NCBI RefSeq assembly: GCF_030552475.1
Contig: NZ_JAUPED010000004.1
Span: 1 to 64,000 of the forward strand
Reading direction: 5' to 3'
Length of the DNA: 64,000 bases
Source of the DNA: Mariniflexile sp. AS56
GTDB lineage: Bacteria > Bacteroidota > Bacteroidia > Flavobacteriales > Flavobacteriaceae
Part shown: positions 1 to 23,846 of the stretch, piece after piece
Position numbering within the stretch: the first letter of the stretch is position 1
Layout: every line of letters begins with the position of its first letter
The notes under the pieces: generated by a model
What the model was told of the DNA's origin: nothing
The model's input: the letters and a program-made list of their open reading frames with translations, nothing else
Database searches by the model: none
Position numbers and translations under genes: made by a program

Positions 1-630
1 AGATGGCTTCGTACCTCGCCATGACGTTGTACATGAAGCATTACGTCATTGCGAAGGAGGCACGACTGAAGCAATCTGCTTATTTTGAGTTATGATTTTA
101 CTTGGAGCTAGACTTCATGAGATGGCTTCGTGCCTCGCCATGACGTTACACATGAAACTTTTCGTCATTGCTAAGGAGGCACGACTGAAGCAATCTCTTC
201 ATTTTGAGTTACAATTTTACTTGGAACTAAACTTCATGGGATGGCTTCGTACCTCGCCATGACGATGTACATGAACCGTTACGTCATTGCGAAGGAGGCA
301 CTACTGAAGCAATCTCTTCATTTTAAATTACAATTACACTTGGAACTAGACTTCATGAGATGGCTTTGTACCTCGCCATGACGTTACACATGAAGCTTTA
401 CGTCATTGCGAAGGAGGCACGACTGAAGCAATCTCTTCATTTTAAGTTACAATTATACTTGGAGCTAAACTTCATGAGATGGCTTCGTGCCTCGCCATGA
501 CGTTAAACATGAAGCATTACGTCATTGCGAAGGAGGCACGACTGAAGCAACCTCATTATTTTGAGTTACAATTACACTTGGAGCTAGATTTCATGAGATG
601 GCTTCGCACCTCGCCATGACGGTGCACAGC
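1..630. repeat. Left array of 119-bp tandem repeat (5 full units + partial)
   Basis: Five head-to-tail units begin at 1, 120, 239, 358 and 477, each exactly 119 bp, followed by a partial unit from 596 to about 630. Each unit has an arm A (agatggcttcgtacctcgcc, then atgacg), a variable loop of about 17 bp, a roughly complementary arm B (cgtcattgcgaaggaggcac, then gactgaagcaatct), and a conserved linker of about 42 bp ending in ttcatg. Arms A and B can fold into a long imperfect hairpin. Loop bases vary most between units; arms and linker are well conserved. The window starts inside the array, so its true left end is unknown. No open frame runs through it. Confidence 0.95.
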
Positions 631-682
631 AGGCTTTAGCCATCACGTCCCCTTAAACCTTTCATTTTTAAGATAAATCACA

Positions 683-690
683 TATATTCG
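683..690 (+). promoter_or_regulatory. Weak candidate -7 box before the sulfatase gene
   Basis: TATATTCG differs at one position from the Bacteroidota -7 consensus TAnnTTTG and lies 53 bp before the sulfatase start codon. No convincing -33 TTTG was seen. Tentative. Confidence 0.25.
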
Positions 691-743
691 AATGCTATTT
701 TAAAAAGCAACGCACCACCTGTGTGTAAAAACGAATTTTAAAG

Positions 744-2306
744 ATGACGCTTCCTATGAAACAAAGCCAAACACCCTTGAAACTTAGTTCCTTATGTATA
801 TGCCTATTTACAGTATTGCTAAGTTCCTTTGGGATGTATGCCCAATCAAACAAGCTCCCGAATATTATTTACCTAATGACGGACGACCAACGTTGGGACA
901 ATATGGGCTGTTATGGAAAACCTGAATTTAAAACTCATAATATCGACCAGTTAGCTGAGGAAGGCGTCATATTTGATAATGCGTTCTACGCTGTTTCTAT
1001 TTGTATGCCAAGTCGGGTATCTATCATGACTGGGCGTTATATTTCTAGCCACCGTGTTGGGTTTGCACCCCCAAATAACCACACACTTTCAAAAGCCGAT
1101 TTCACCAACAGTTACCCCTCAAAACTTAAGGAAGCTGGTTACCGTACTGGTTTTGTAGGCAAAATTGGTTTCGCTGTAACGGAAGATGCACTGCCCCCAA
1201 GTTCTCCAGATAATTACGATATGCAGCAACATTATGCAGATGCTTTCGACTTTTTTGTTGGCGATGGCACCCATATAGGTGGCGGCTTAAAAATATGGCC
1301 CGCTGATGATGCTGCTTTAAAAAACATATACCACGCCGATAGACCTGCAAACGAGCGTACTTTAAAAACTGGCGATGCGATGCTGCGCTTTATAGACACC
1401 CAACCGAAAGACCAACCATTTTGTTTATCTGTGAGCTTTTTAGCGGTGAAACACGATAGAGATTCCGATGTGTACCCACCGCATTTAGAACTATTTAAGG
1501 ATTATAAATTTCCGGTGCCAGCCAATTGGGTAAATGGTGCGAACCATAAATTACCGAAAGTAGTTAAAGAAAATTGGCGTGGTGTACCGTTGCACTTAAA
1601 ACGATCGTCTACCCCTGCTATGTACCAAAGGCTTGTTCGTCGTTTTGCGGCGCAAGGCTATACTGTAGACCAACAGGTTGGACACCTTATGAAAAAACTG
1701 AAAGAAACCGGGTTACTGGATAACACGATTATTATATATACTAGTGATAACGGGCGTTTTCAAGGATCGCAAGGACTTTTTGACAAGGCACTACTTTATG
1801 AAGAATCTGTAAAACAACCGCTTATTGTTTTTGATGGTAGAGCCGCAGCTTCTGAACGTAAACGTCGGGAAAAGGCATTAATATCATCGGTTGATATCGC
1901 TCCTACCATATTATCACTAGCAGGTTTAGAGCCTGCACCGAGTATGCAAGGGCATGATTTTAGTGGTATTTTAAATAAAACACAAGCGCTTTCCTCTTGG
2001 CAAGATGCTGTTTATATGGAGAATCTCTTCCTTGTTTCGATGTACCAAGTGCGAAATGCTAAAAATGTAGAAGCATTAAATGAAAAGGAAGTAGCAGAAA
2101 ATAAATCGTACCGCTGCCGAGGCGTGCGCACAGACCGTTGGAAGTATTTTGTTTACTATGAACATAACCCGAAACTTGAGGAGTTATACGATTTGGACAC
2201 AGACCCAAACGAACAACATAATTTGGCTGCTAACCCAGAGTTTGCTGATGTGCTAACAGGGTTACGTGCACGCACTGAGGCATTTTACTTGAAAGCGATT
2301 GAGTGA
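744..2306 (+). CDS. S1-family (formylglycine) sulfatase, exported
   Basis: Predicted hydrolase of sulfate esters, probably on a sulfated glycan or small sulfated sugar; the substrate cannot be told from sequence. A hydrophobic signal segment (about residues 13-33, ending near YAQS) implies export. The mature part opens with NIIYLMTDDQR (metal-binding Asp47/Asp48). The sulfatase signature CMPSR follows at Cys87-Arg91, with Cys87 the residue matured to formylglycine. The chain ends with the usual YDLDTDPNEQHNL tail. At 520 aa the length is normal. A second Met at residue 5 could also be the start. The gene stands alone between two arrays of the same 119-bp repeat, and its stop codon lies 6 bp before the right array. 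Confidence 0.9.
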   Translation: MTLPMKQSQTPLKLSSLCICLFTVLLSSFGMYAQSNKLPNIIYLMTDDQRWDNMGCYGKPEFKTHNIDQLAEEGVIFDNAFYAVSICMPSRVSIMTGRYISSHRVGFAPPNNHTLSKADFTNSYPSKLKEAGYRTGFVGKIGFAVTEDALPPSSPDNYDMQQHYADAFDFFVGDGTHIGGGLKIWPADDAALKNIYHADRPANERTLKTGDAMLRFIDTQPKDQPFCLSVSFLAVKHDRDSDVYPPHLELFKDYKFPVPANWVNGANHKLPKVVKENWRGVPLHLKRSSTPAMYQRLVRRFAAQGYTVDQQVGHLMKKLKETGLLDNTIIIYTSDNGRFQGSQGLFDKALLYEESVKQPLIVFDGRAAASERKRREKALISSVDIAPTILSLAGLEPAPSMQGHDFSGILNKTQALSSWQDAVYMENLFLVSMYQVRNAKNVEALNEKEVAENKSYRCRGVRTDRWKYFVYYEHNPKLEELYDLDTDPNEQHNLAANPEFADVLTGLRARTEAFYLKAIE

Positions 2307-2312
2307 TTCATG

Positions 2313-2870
2313 AGATGGCTTCGTACCTCGCCATGACGGTACACATGAAGCATTACGTCATTGTGAAGGAGGCACGACTGAAGCAATCTCTTCATTTTAA
2401 ATTACAATTTTACTTGGAGCTAGATTTCATGAGATGGCTTCGTACCTCGCCATGACGGTAAACATGAAACCTTACGTCATTGCGAAGGAGGCACGACTGA
2501 AGCAATCTCTTCATTTTGAGTTACAATTATACTTGGAACTAAACTTCATGAGATGGCTTCGTACCTCGCCATGACGTTACACATGATGCATTACGTCATT
2601 GCGAAGGAGGCACGACTGAAGCAATCTCTTCATTTTGAGTTACAATTATACTTGGAGCTAAACTTCATGGGATGGCTTCGTACCTCGCCATGACGTGACA
2701 CATGAACCGTTACGTCATGGCGAAGGAGGCACGACTGAAGCAATCTCTTCATTTTGAGTTATGATTTTACTTGGAGCTAGACTTCATGAGATGGCTTCGT
2801 ACCTCGCCATGACGGTGCAACCTCCCCATGACGGTACACAGCATGAGATAACCTCGCTATTCTAGCTATG
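2313..2870. repeat. Right array of the 119-bp tandem repeat (4 full units + degenerate tail)
   Basis: Units begin at 2313, 2432, 2551 and 2670, again with a period of exactly 119 bp and the same polarity as the left array. A partial unit starts at 2789 and decays into scrambled pieces (repeated ccatgacggt, and gagataacctcgc near 2845) by about 2870. Arms and linker match the left array. Together with the left array this makes nine full copies. The array begins directly after the sulfatase stop codon. Confidence 0.94.
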
Positions 2871-2889
2871 ACGGGAACTTTTTGAGTAG

Positions 2890-2990
2890 ACCGCGTTAGG
2901 GATAGAAACGAAAAGCCCACAGTGCCCCCGAGGTATCGGGGGCACGAGGACTTGTAGTGGATAGCCCGACCCTTGGGTAACGCCCAAAGA
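2890..2990. repeat. Dispersed structured intergenic element, copy 1
   Basis: This stretch starts ccgcgttaggga and ends aacgcccaaaga. It matches 24936-25027 along its length: shared blocks are gcgttagggat, gaaaagcccacag, gaggactt, agcccgaccctt and aacgcccaaaga. Copy 1 carries an extra perfect hairpin at 2923-2944 (TGCCCCCGA, loop GGTA, TCGGGGGCA). It lies 40 bp beyond the stop codon of the GH63-like gene, which is read on the minus strand. I recall similar elements being common between genes in Flavobacteriaceae, but I have not checked this. Confidence 0.8.
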
Positions 2991-3030
2991 CCAACTATTA
3001 ATATGTGTACTATTCTTGCTTTCGCAGGAA

Positions 3031-5652
3031 TTAATCGGCGTCCATTTCCATGATTAAGTTGGCTATTAAAGCGGTCCACCCTGTTTGGTGAGATGCTCCT
3101 AAACCTTTTCCGTTGTCGCCATCGAAAAACTCGTAAAACAGATGTAAATCTTTAAAATGTTCGTCTTTTTCAAACTCCTTACCATCACTATCTGAATGGT
3201 ATTGGAACCTACCTTCGCTATTAGGTTCAAACAGTTTTACTAAACGTTTTGTAAGCGCGTTGGCTATTTCTTTCAGGTTTAATTTATTACCAGATCCTGT
3301 TGGGAATTCGTATTGATACGTTGGCCCGTAAAAGGTGTAATACTTACGTAACGACTGGATGATCATGTAATTTAATGGCATCCAAATAGGTCCGCGCCAG
3401 TTCGAGTTACCTCCAAACATGTTGGAACGACTCTCGCCTGGTTCGTACTGAATTTGGTGATGCCCGTGATGTTCGAACACAAATGGGTGTGCTTCATGAT
3501 ACTTAGAAAGTGAACGAATACCGAATTCTGATAGGAACTCGTTTTCATCTAACAAACGCTTTAGTAAATGCTCTAACCTAAACCCGCGCATGATGGCGAA
3601 TAGGTAATTCCCTTCGGAATTGGTTTCGTCTAGATTGGTGATTAAGGATGCTAAATCTGGACGGGTTCGCATAATTTCGTTGGCTCTAAACCTGAAATCT
3701 TTAAGCTCTTCGAACAAATCTTTATGCATAATCTCGACCGCAAACATAGGTATAACCCCTACTAGCGAACGTACTTTTAAACGACTGGTGCTACCATTCG
3801 CCATTTCTACCACATCGTAATAGAAATTATCTTCTTCATCCCACAGGGAAATATCTTTTTTACCAATGTGATGCATCGCCCAAGCGATATTCAAGAAATG
3901 CCTGAAAAACTTCGCTGCCGATTCTTCGTATATTTTATTAGTTTTTGAAAGTTCTAGAGACATGCGTAGCATATTAAGCGTAAACATGGCCATCCAACTG
4001 GTCGCATCGGCTTGCTGCATTCTGGTAATTCCAGGCGGCATGTGGTTACGATCGAACACCCCAATATTATCTAAACCTAAAAAGCCACCTTCAAATAAAT
4101 CGGTACCACTTTTATCTTTTTGGTTTACCCACCATGTGAAATTGATGAGTAGTTTTTGGAAGGCTTTTTCTAAAAATTCTGTATCTCCTCTACCTGTGTA
4201 ATTTTTATCTTTTTCATACACATTCCAAACCGCATAAGAATGTACTGGCGGATTTACATCACTAAAATTCCATTCGTACGCCGGAATTTGCCCGTTGGGA
4301 TGCATGTAATTTTCTTTAAGCACTAAAAGCAACTGTTCTTTAGCGAAAAAAGGATCTATTTCTACGAAAGACGCCATATGGAAAGCCAAATCCCAGGCTG
4401 CATACCAGGGGTATTCCCATTTATCGGGCATGGAAATAACATGCCTGTTGGTAAGGTGTTGCCAACTGTTGTTTCGCATGTTTGCTCTTTCGGGTTTTCC
4501 CTCGCCCGGGCCACCAAACAGCCATTTAAATACATCGTTATAATAGAATTGCTTAGTCCATAATAAACCAGAAAAAGCACTTCTTGCGATGGCTTGATGG
4601 GTTTCTGGAATATCTGACTTTATAGTTTCGGTGTAAAATTCTTCACATTCGGTAATACGATTGTGGAAAATAGCATCGAAATCGCCCCAAGGGTCTTTTA
4701 CTTTCTTTTTACTTAAACGTACTTTGATGGTTTTCTCTTCGCCTGCTTTTAAATTTAGCTGATGCCAAACGGCAAATTTAGAACCTACTTTTTCTGGGTT
4801 AACGGTCGCTTCTCCATTTACAACATGGTCGTTAATACCATCTTTTACATAGGGAACATCGTTTTCAAAATTATAAATACGTTTGTTATTGGTTTCATTA
4901 TCACAAAATAACTGTTCGCCATCTTCATGATAGAAATGATACTTCCCGTTTCTAATACTTTTAGATTGTACGCTGTTATCGGACATCGTTTTCACGCTAG
5001 GGCGTTCGTAACGGTTGTTGTGTTTCCAGAAATTACGGAACCACAGGTGTGGTAACACGTGAATATCAGCCGCTTTGCTGCCTCTATTCACCACGGTAAC
5101 CTTCATAAGAACATCATCGACACCTGCTTTGGCATATTCAATATAACAATCGAAATACGCACTGTCTTTAAAAGCACCAGTATCTAATATTTCGTATTCT
5201 GGTTCATGACGGCTTCTTTGATTGCCAGTTACTAAATCGCCATAAGGAAATTCGCAATGTGGGTATTTATAAAGATATTTTGAATATGAGTGTGTTGGTG
5301 AAGATACTTGATGAAAATAAAGTTCTTTCACATCTTCCCCGTGGTTTCCTTGGTTGTTGGTAAGCCCGAACAAACGTTCTTTTAAAATAGGATCGTTCCC
5401 GTTCCAAAATGCGGGTGCTAAACACAAGATTTCTCTGGAATCGCAAAAACCACCAATACCCTCTTCTCCCCAACGGTAGGCATTACTACGTGCTTTTTCA
5501 TGATCGATAAATTCCCAGGCTTCACCATGGTCGCTATAATCTTCTCGCACTGTTCCCCATTGTCTCTCTGCTAAATAAGGCCCCCATTTTTTCCAATTTT
5601 TATAATTGTTGGGTACTTTTAATCGTTCTGCTTCTGGACCTTTTTGAATCAT
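3031..5652 (-). CDS. GH63-like (MGH1-type) glucosidase, cytoplasmic
   Basis: Large (alpha/alpha)6-barrel glycosidase of the bacterial GH63-like 'glucosidase' group, which is about 880 aa long. Family hallmarks are the N-terminal KKWGPYLAERQWGTVREDYS block, the barrel motif WEYPWYAAWDLAFH (with an acidic residue at about 421 from the chosen start), SNWRGPIWMPLNYM and the late HQTGWTALIANLI. No signal peptide, so it is probably cytoplasmic. I chose the ATG at 5652 (MIQKGPEAER) because the family's conserved block begins shortly after it; an upstream ATG at 5697 would add 15 residues of poor character. The substrate is unknown. It stands outside the starch locus and has no obvious partner. Confidence 0.8.
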   Translation of the reverse strand: MIQKGPEAERLKVPNNYKNWKKWGPYLAERQWGTVREDYSDHGEAWEFIDHEKARSNAYRWGEEGIGGFCDSREILCLAPAFWNGNDPILKERLFGLTNNQGNHGEDVKELYFHQVSSPTHSYSKYLYKYPHCEFPYGDLVTGNQRSRHEPEYEILDTGAFKDSAYFDCYIEYAKAGVDDVLMKVTVVNRGSKAADIHVLPHLWFRNFWKHNNRYERPSVKTMSDNSVQSKSIRNGKYHFYHEDGEQLFCDNETNNKRIYNFENDVPYVKDGINDHVVNGEATVNPEKVGSKFAVWHQLNLKAGEEKTIKVRLSKKKVKDPWGDFDAIFHNRITECEEFYTETIKSDIPETHQAIARSAFSGLLWTKQFYYNDVFKWLFGGPGEGKPERANMRNNSWQHLTNRHVISMPDKWEYPWYAAWDLAFHMASFVEIDPFFAKEQLLLVLKENYMHPNGQIPAYEWNFSDVNPPVHSYAVWNVYEKDKNYTGRGDTEFLEKAFQKLLINFTWWVNQKDKSGTDLFEGGFLGLDNIGVFDRNHMPPGITRMQQADATSWMAMFTLNMLRMSLELSKTNKIYEESAAKFFRHFLNIAWAMHHIGKKDISLWDEEDNFYYDVVEMANGSTSRLKVRSLVGVIPMFAVEIMHKDLFEELKDFRFRANEIMRTRPDLASLITNLDETNSEGNYLFAIMRGFRLEHLLKRLLDENEFLSEFGIRSLSKYHEAHPFVFEHHGHHQIQYEPGESRSNMFGGNSNWRGPIWMPLNYMIIQSLRKYYTFYGPTYQYEFPTGSGNKLNLKEIANALTKRLVKLFEPNSEGRFQYHSDSDGKEFEKDEHFKDLHLFYEFFDGDNGKGLGASHQTGWTALIANLIMEMDAD

Positions 5653-5935
5653 ATATTTAAGGTATAAGTTTTGTGTAAAATAAGAATGAAAAGCCAAGAA
5701 TCGGTTTCAAAAATCAATAGAACTATTGACATCAAACCGTTGGTTTCTAACAGGCTTTAAAATAAAATTAAGGCTTTTTTCTTGAAATTGTTAACCCCAT
5801 AAAAAGTATTGCCTAATTGCTGTTTTTATTCGGATTCTTTTAACTTCTCGTAAAAAAATAGCCGATTCATTAGCGAACCCACACTCTAAGAAAGCGTATT
5901 AAGGTGCTAAACAAAAAAGCAGAAAGGCATTTGTA

Positions 5936-7428: not shown

Positions 7429-8142
7429 ATGAGACTTGTATTACTATTATTTGTTTTCGTTCTTTTTCTAAATTGTGAAGATAAGAAAAGTAAAAAGAAA
7501 ATAAATCTTGAAAAAGACCTACCAACCGTTGTGAAGGAAGAAGGACTCACGGGCGATGAAGACACCAGTGATGTTGCAGATAGGCCCTTCCCGAAGCTGA
7601 GCTCTAAAAATGCCATGGAGTTTTTTTTACAGTACGACAAAGTACACAAAGAGAACAAAGTACGTTTAACAACCGACTTTGGCATTATCGATATTCTGCT
7701 GTTTGAAGATACTAAGTTTCACCGTTCAAACTTCATCTTTTTAACCAAACAAAAATACTTTAACGGCACCCAATTTTACAGAGTGATTAATAATTTTATG
7801 GTACAAGCTGGAAATAGCGATGATAAAAAAACCGCCAACAAACGTAATTATATAGGCAAGTATTTGTTGCCTCCCGATACAAAACGTGGGTATAAACACG
7901 ACCGCGGTGTGGTTTCTATGCCTAGTAGTGAAATTGATAACCCCCACAAACTCGCATCACCTTATGAGTTTTTTATTGTACAACAACACGGTGGCTCTCA
8001 CTTTTTAGATGGTGATTATACTATTTTTGGAAAAGTAACCCGAGGTATGGATGTTGTTGATAAAATTGCAGCAGTTGAAAGTGATGATGGCGATTGGCCC
8101 CAACGTAATATTTACATTAGAAAGGTGGAAATTATTAATTAA
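7429..8142 (+). CDS. Cyclophilin-type peptidyl-prolyl isomerase lipoprotein
   Basis: Predicted periplasmic prolyl isomerase that helps fold exported proteins. The N-terminus MRLVLLLFVFVLFLNC is a lipoprotein signal with the lipidated Cys at residue 16, followed by a highly charged linker. The cyclophilin domain (about residues 80-235) shows FHRSNFIFLTKQKYFNGTQF, a GVVSMP motif and a late DYTIFGKVTRGMDVVDKI block. Length and layout match flavobacterial lipoprotein cyclophilins. The start codon is 3 bp from that of the divergent NUDIX gene. Confidence 0.87.
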   Translation: MRLVLLLFVFVLFLNCEDKKSKKKINLEKDLPTVVKEEGLTGDEDTSDVADRPFPKLSSKNAMEFFLQYDKVHKENKVRLTTDFGIIDILLFEDTKFHRSNFIFLTKQKYFNGTQFYRVINNFMVQAGNSDDKKTANKRNYIGKYLLPPDTKRGYKHDRGVVSMPSSEIDNPHKLASPYEFFIVQQHGGSHFLDGDYTIFGKVTRGMDVVDKIAAVESDDGDWPQRNIYIRKVEIIN

Positions 8143-8146
8143 TCTA

Positions 8147-8198
8147 GACTGAAGACTGAAGACTGAAGACTGAAGACTGAAGACTGAAGACTGAAGAC
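8147..8198. repeat. Heptanucleotide microsatellite (gactgaa)x7
   Basis: Seven perfect consecutive copies of gactgaa plus a trailing gac, starting 4 bp after the cyclophilin stop codon. A 7-bp unit is not a coding triplet multiple. The word gactgaa also occurs inside arm B of the 119-bp repeat, possibly by chance. It could act as a slippage site downstream of the gene; it is not within any frame. Confidence 0.95.
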
Positions 8199-23781: not shown

Positions 23782-23846
23782 TGACTGTGACTGTGACTGT
23801 GACTGTGACTGTGACTGTGACTGTGACTGTGACTGTGACTGTGACT
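23782..23846. repeat. Hexanucleotide microsatellite (tgactg)n, about 10.8 copies
   Basis: Perfect run of tgactg units in the gap between the AIM24-family gene and the DUF4442 gene, 6 bp from the stop of the latter. It creates a false Val-Thr repeat frame. Such runs often change length by slippage. Confidence 0.95.

Follow-up and report, generated by a model that had tools for sequence, protein, structure and literature searches.

The sulfatase gene at the start of contig C34 lies between two tandem arrays of a 119-bp unit. This unit consists of CGTC-tagged REPs joined as a heterodimer, and such REPs are a repeat class already known (Di Nocera et al. 2013, PMC3733652). We hold with moderate confidence that both arrays are the product of a GIY-YIG nuclease/target system, with the sulfatase carried as a passenger. 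The fall-off of REP density with distance from stand-alone GIY-YIG genes, the contrast with RAYT genes, and the repeats that track nuclease clade point to a specific, bench-testable partner for CGTC REPs. The initial annotation of this locus overlooked both the CGTC REP identity of the unit and its tie to GIY-YIG genes that are boxed in the same way.

The sulfatase locus and its repeat unit

The window, i.e. the whole stretch of 64,000 nucleotides analysed, comprises bases 1–64000 of contig C34, one of 49 contigs of a 4.65-Mb genome that, judging by its nearest named relatives, probably belongs to the Flavobacteriaceae. Its left array (1..628, + strand) contains five full units, at 1–119, 120–238, 239–357, 358–476, and 477–595, and a partial sixth at about 596–628, with each unit consisting of a CGTC-REP heterodimer and a linker. 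The right array (about 2307..2816, + strand) contains four full units, at 2313–2431, 2432–2550, 2551–2669, and 2670–2788, and a partial fifth at about 2789–2814, all in the orientation of the left array, with TRF giving 5.3 copies and 89% matches on the left, 4.3 copies and 92% matches on the right, and 0% indels in both. The nine full copies described in the initial annotation, each of exactly 119 bp, in one orientation, and flanking a single gene (five at 1–595 and four at 2313–2788), are confirmed, and are a lower bound because the window opens at the very start of contig C34, where the left array is truncated.

ORF and Pfam evidence places a sulfatase gene of 520 aa between the arrays at 744..2306 (+ strand; Sulfatase 144.8 bits, SGSH_C 92.5 bits), with the first full unit of the right array starting at 2313, 6 bp after the stop codon, as had been noted. 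The neighbour outside this array is a conserved MGH1-like glycoside hydrolase gene (3031..5697, − strand; ORF, Pfam, and synteny), which serves as our synteny anchor, and the right array sits between these two convergent genes, a gap of the kind given in PMC3733652, in the portions available, as a usual REP position. Long, regular arrays around one gene are noteworthy, as had been remarked at the outset, and together with the GIY-YIG association they set this locus apart from the CGTC REPs presented in the same portions of that paper.

Each unit is built from arm A (25 nt, minus strand), a 17-bp spacer, arm B (33 nt, plus strand), and a linker of 44 bp leading into the following unit, as exemplified by arm A at 2..26 (− strand), with the CGTC tag at its right end, and arm B at 44..76 (+ strand), with the tag at its left end. 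The tag is present in arms A and B of most copies, and a CGTC-headed regular expression allowing two substitutions finds 19 REP matches in the window, all within the two arrays. The suggestion that the unit is made of palindromes from a dispersed class of bacterial repeat was therefore correct, with CGTC REPs being that class. As far as the parts of PMC3733652 used here describe them, these REPs have a CGTC tag, a short AT-first stem of 8–9 bp, HH and TT dimers, and heterodimers, with variable TT spacers and conserved HH spacers (section 14), and Bacteroidetes are among their hosts. The 119-bp unit has in common with them the tag, the AT-first stem, the HH/TT dimers, the heterodimers, and the spacer pattern, with the mean minor frequency over 16 units (nine from the window and seven from contig C26) being lowest in the arms (0.019 and 0.018), intermediate in the 44-bp HH spacer, i.e. 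the linker (0.070), and highest in the 17-bp TT spacer (0.125, over an 18-column segment).

Five stem pairs were examined over 251 distinct REP strings, with pair 4 Watson–Crick in 200 of the 251 (shuffle mean 115, maximum 134), pairs 2 and 3 also above every shuffle, and pairs 1 and 5 not beyond shuffles; since the strings are interrelated, this covariation supports the structure and cannot serve as a probability. The long hairpin that arms A and B had been proposed to form is evident in one of the two copies folded, at 120–202 (z −4.55, 0 of 200 shuffles as strong), and is weak in the other, at 2313–2395 (z −1.58, 14 of 200 shuffles), with arms A and B folded separately being no stronger than shuffles (z −1.06 and −0.81).

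A CRISPR array is ruled out, as the repetition extends over all 119 bp, including spacer and linker, and leaves no unique spacers. Integron attC cassette arrays, considered by eye, resemble the present arrays in having palindromic sites near genes that may act single-stranded; they differ in that many sites here lie head to tail with no intervening gene, and in that the arms are those of CGTC REPs. A scan of positions 1–3000 against Rfam returned no family at its gathering score, and promoter-like sites in 1–3100 were fewer than in shuffles (3 versus 6.3). Two perfect tandem repeats were also observed elsewhere in the window, AGACTGA ×7.6 at 8146–8198, starting just past an ORF that ends at 8142, and TGACTG ×10.8 at 23782–23846.

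Stand-alone GIY-YIG genes beside CGTC REPs

The portions of PMC3733652 at hand describe CGTC repeats as having neither an association with transposase genes nor a dedicated transposase, and leave their mobiliser to future work. The term GIY-YIG is absent from the text of that paper as available to us, the passages of PMC1564403 examined yielded nothing on repeats, and among the records returned by our literature searches, broader ones included, none was found joining GIY-YIG with the phrase repetitive extragenic palindromic. The present genome has one match to the nuclease profile (C1:624662–624961), inside a REP array of 187-bp period, and two other genomes of the genus, G001 and G003, each have a stand-alone GIY-YIG gene amid REPs. 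The encoded domain (PF01541, 57 bits, 100 aa) has as its nearest solved structure by sequence the UPF0213 protein 1zg2 (E 0.0022), with named models giving NCBIfam matches below cut-off and weak, partial PADLOC matches only.

The aligned GIY-YIG proteins of these three genomes, chosen for lying in REP arrays, served as profile seeds, and a collection of species genomes was scanned by protein patterns only, with the best 80 of 277 confirmed relatives analysed. Among these best 80 of 277 loci, 65 have a CGTC REP no more than 500 bp from the ~100-aa GIY-YIG gene, 53 have one on both sides, and the remaining 15 have no REP within this distance; REP orientation beside the gene is not fixed (15/14/12/12). 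REP density in the same loci falls from 6.88 per kb at 0–250 bp to 2.16 at 250–500 bp, 0.61 at 500–1000 bp, 0.23 at 1000–2000 bp, 0.061 at 2000–4000 bp, and 0.034 at 4000–8000 bp, the density near the gene being about 200-fold that at 4–8 kb.

In a family sample of 60 genomes, each of another genus, all 57 non-own places found with the profile at 1e-12 were examined, and a REP lies within 500 bp of 7 of the 16 loci scoring 100 bits or more, 1 of the 19 at 80–100 bits, and none of the 22 below, with two more loci of at least 100 bits having 6 and 7 CGTCATT words missed by the regular expression. Within the genus, where 30 of 46 matches to GIY-YIG genes of all types were examined, 26 of the 30 are without a REP match, and one of the other four has its matches only about 1.25 kb away. 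The link by presence across the 60 family genomes is weak: the nuclease occurs in 8 of the 11 genomes that show the strict REP pattern and in 20 of the 49 that do not, and in one genome, G021, 13 REP matches are accompanied by no match to the nuclease. The GIY-YIG gene of the present genome and the sulfatase are on different contigs, and the REPs around that gene are unlike those of the 119-bp unit. Among the loci retrieved, arm A in its GCCAT form was encountered in no genome outside this genus, and it lies beside neither that gene nor any of the best 80 of 277.

Arrays resembling those of the sulfatase locus are found at the nuclease genes themselves. Counting as an array any REP-bearing tandem array by TRF with a period of at least 60 and at most 500 bp from the GIY-YIG gene, 21 of the best 80 of 277 loci have an array and 7 have one on both sides. 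The two arrays have the same orientation in all seven, the upstream unit matches its best downstream copy at 88–98%, periods agree within 1 bp in five, and both arrays reach at least three copies in three (L074, L078, and L117); in L078, from Aquimarina pacifica, a 93-bp unit is present in 8.9 and 11.3 copies at 16–17 bp from the GIY-YIG gene. As the sulfatase is boxed in the way these genes are, we read it as a passenger in the nuclease's place, with uptake into an array and array growth on both sides each being possible.

Repeats beside stand-alone GIY-YIG genes extend beyond CGTC REPs, with 9-mers repeated at least three times near the gene in 97 of 140 loci, compared with 18 at 1–1.5 kb, and other GIY-YIG genes often being accompanied by distinct repeats, for example TCTCGATAC, TCAGAATGACA, or GATGCTGAA words. 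The clade specificity of these repeats was assessed in the family sample, at 57 loci including our own, one overlapping duplicate having been dropped. Pairs from different genera share repeats in 51 of 1226 cases below 50% protein identity, 33 of 230 at 50–60%, 30 of 49 at 60–70%, and 23 of 35 at 70% or more, with sharing in 1 of 1540 cases in the far control and a Mantel r of 0.371 matched by none of 5000 permutations. No same-genome pair of this sample shares repeats (0 of 56), just two of these pairs being at 70% identity or more. Since sharing rises with protein identity and is absent in the same-genome pairs of this sample, the repeats, as judged from sequence, follow nuclease clade and not genome, which is the behaviour expected of a nuclease and its target.

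The trend is steeper over all 140 loci, with repeats shared by 3% of pairs below 50% identity and 96% above 80%, in a set that contains near relatives and one locus twice (L079 and L172, identical DNA). This set also counts L065/L082 (proteins 79% identical) and L088/L090 (72%) as different genomes, each being in fact a same-genome pair; both pairs share repeats, each within one clade, and are omitted from the same-genome sharing of 1 in 60 in this set, with the family sample being free of such pairs. Separately, TCTCGATAC-type repeats accompany the GIY-YIG gene at L218, L219, L221, L222, and L226, which represent five genera, and make up a second nuclease/repeat class unlike the CGTC REPs.

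Growth of the arrays and alternative origins

Under the nuclease/target reading, the REPs would be the target sites of their GIY-YIG nuclease, which would act near the CGTC tag on a hairpin-forming, probably single-stranded, form of the REP, with cutting and repair spreading REP dimers and unequal exchange favouring tandem growth. A growing array would have incorporated the sulfatase or enclosed it, leaving it where other loci have the nuclease gene. The array would then owe its existence chiefly to a selfish nuclease/target system, with sulfatase loss, amplification, or exchange via recombination between the arrays, and effects on the mRNA 3′ end of the hairpins directly past the sulfatase stop, as plausible by-products.

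A similar arrangement is reported from Neisseria, where the GIY-YIG nuclease Ssn reportedly cuts single-stranded DNA at a repeated sequence, and where the NTS/dRS3 repeats of Ssn lie around genes. If so, Ssn and the system proposed here have in common a stand-alone GIY-YIG nuclease and a cognate, clade-specific CGTC-class repeat beside its gene, and the principle is known, with the tandem arrays and the passenger gene being new. The system proposed here differs in belonging to another phylum, in its tandem dimer arrays, and in having either the nuclease gene or a sulfatase within the array. The dRS3 repeat is the CGTC-1 of PMC3733652, going by the portions of that paper available.

A wider proposal, which we put forward tentatively and with some doubt, is that stand-alone GIY-YIG nucleases in Bacteroidota and beyond form a large nuclease/palindrome family with clade-specific repeats, that they provide the mobiliser so far missing for CGTC REPs, and that their arrays take up host genes such as the sulfatase as non-autonomous cassettes that may be lost, amplified, or exchanged. 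If host genes can occupy the nuclease's place in arrays, sulfatase-like genes would have a route by which to change copy number or move.

The arrays could instead have grown passively, through nuclease-free replication slippage and unequal crossing-over of a REP pair, and have been kept for a role at the RNA or DNA level (mRNA 3′-end hairpins or supercoiling) or for none. This would fit the single pairs in G001 and G003 as against the arrays in the present genome, the copies that are exactly in phase with no indels, and the position of the right array just past the stop, between convergent genes, a usual place for REPs according to the same portions of PMC3733652. We nevertheless consider it unlikely, as it leaves unexplained both the arrays that box GIY-YIG genes and the tracking of nuclease clade by repeat type across genera, and no terminator-like site was found in 1–3100.

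Mobilisation of the 119-type REP pairs by the genome's own RAYT, an HUH Y1 transposase, with the GIY-YIG link arising as a side effect of shared repeat-rich intergenic DNA, appears quite improbable. RAYT/REP systems are of an established kind, and the only Y1_Tnp match of this genome (C12:160644–160859) lies between two 119-type copies and passes the NCBIfam cut-off for REP-associated tyrosine transposases (NF047646; 97.7 versus 80 bits), with a RAYT homologue in G001 lying about 3 kb from a 119-type pair. However, among the RAYT matches listed, a CGTC REP lies within 1.5 kb in 2 of 30 loci, our own included (13 of the 30 being above the curated cut-off), no RAYT homologue lies in the 10 kb around the G003 pair, and another palindrome, GAAGTCGGGAGACTTC, is nearer to our RAYT on both sides. 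Furthermore, according to section 16 of PMC3733652, the tyrosine transposase genes that were checked in CGTC-positive species all lacked flanking CGTC sequences. RAYT/REP systems (REPtrons) and BIME-like clusters share with the present arrays their REP dimers, tandem clusters, and a partner nuclease gene with its own repeats on either side; the 119-bp unit, however, lacks the GTAG tag of RAYT REPtrons and carries CGTC, and the partner here is GIY-YIG rather than HUH. Next to 119-type pairs, the region C12:160066–161643 (in L005) holds the RAYT, the flanking GAAGTCGGGAGACTTC, and sequences that by eye resemble the decayed 3′ ends of additional RAYT copies.

Genomic context of the arrays

With one unit as query, 50 matches are found in the present genome, partial ones counted, and arrays of the 119-type unit occur also on contigs C26, C30, and C14, among others. 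Several of these arrays lie at contig ends, and thus probably break short-read assemblies of such genomes. Exact overlaps of at least 15 bp, among eight ends compared, join C14 to C30 (34 bp), C30 to C26 (33 bp), and C26 to C34 (69 bp), and because the units repeat, these overlaps fit assembly breaks and are no proof of adjacency. An assembly artefact, with the array or its position by the sulfatase being wrong, is highly improbable: whilst repeats are difficult to assemble, C34 begins within an array, and the three end pairs overlap inside arrays, the nine window units differ pairwise by 4–15 bases, unlike artefactual copying, the sulfatase and right array are both internal to one contig, and comparable arrays lie inside long contigs of other genomes (e.g. 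L078 and L117).

When units from the left, right, and C26 arrays are compared, they do not group according to array (p 0.475). The two arrays flanking the sulfatase resemble one another no more than they resemble the C26 array, so nothing marks the sulfatase and its arrays as a single moving unit. Block copying between the C26 and left units is suggestive at most, with the best register reached by 116 of 2000 shuffles, compared with 1828 of 2000 for C26 and right, and 1214 of 2000 for left and right.

The MGH1-like gene is present in five of six genomes of the genus, our own included. Its flank on the sulfatase side carries, in both G001 and G002, a GH1 gene together with genes for a glycosyltransferase and a metallophosphatase. 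The copies of these three genes in the present genome are on C26, and synteny therefore favours the order C26–array–C34. Beside the GH1 gene, the present genome has REPs at the start of contig C26, G001 has one A–B pair, and G002 has one REP of another type. In the roughly 8 to 12 kb read beside the MGH1-like gene in G001, G002, G003, and G005, comparison of the ORFs with the sulfatase at 1e-10 gives no match, and the intervening genes differ. G003 and G005 differ in gene content with no REP match in the stretch, and gene turnover at this site therefore does not require arrays.

The proposal in the initial annotation that the sulfatase is a cassette, open to deletion or amplification by recombination between its arrays, stands in part. 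The two arrays, in the same orientation, provide the homology that such events would need, and the four genus relatives have no sulfatase relative by the MGH1-like gene in the stretches read; against this, no fused-array or amplified form was seen, and G003 and G005 differ in gene content with no REP match. Relatives carrying the same gene with no repeats had been named as evidence that would count against the proposal, and these were found in part, with sulfatase homologues at 60–65% identity in G001, G002, G007, and on contig C46 of the present genome having no REP match in the surrounding 4.4 to 9 kb. As these relatives lie elsewhere without such repeats, the arrays belong to the site and not to the gene.

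Two further observations concern REP arrays of the genus. A higher-order REP array with 154- and 115-bp units lies on contig C1 of G001 (L261:2518–3572). Contig C26, both ends of which are REP arrays, carries a SIR2-HerA pair, a known type of anti-phage defence pair, at L002:5932–8717 (PADLOC SIR2 434.8 bits, HerA 809.9 bits).
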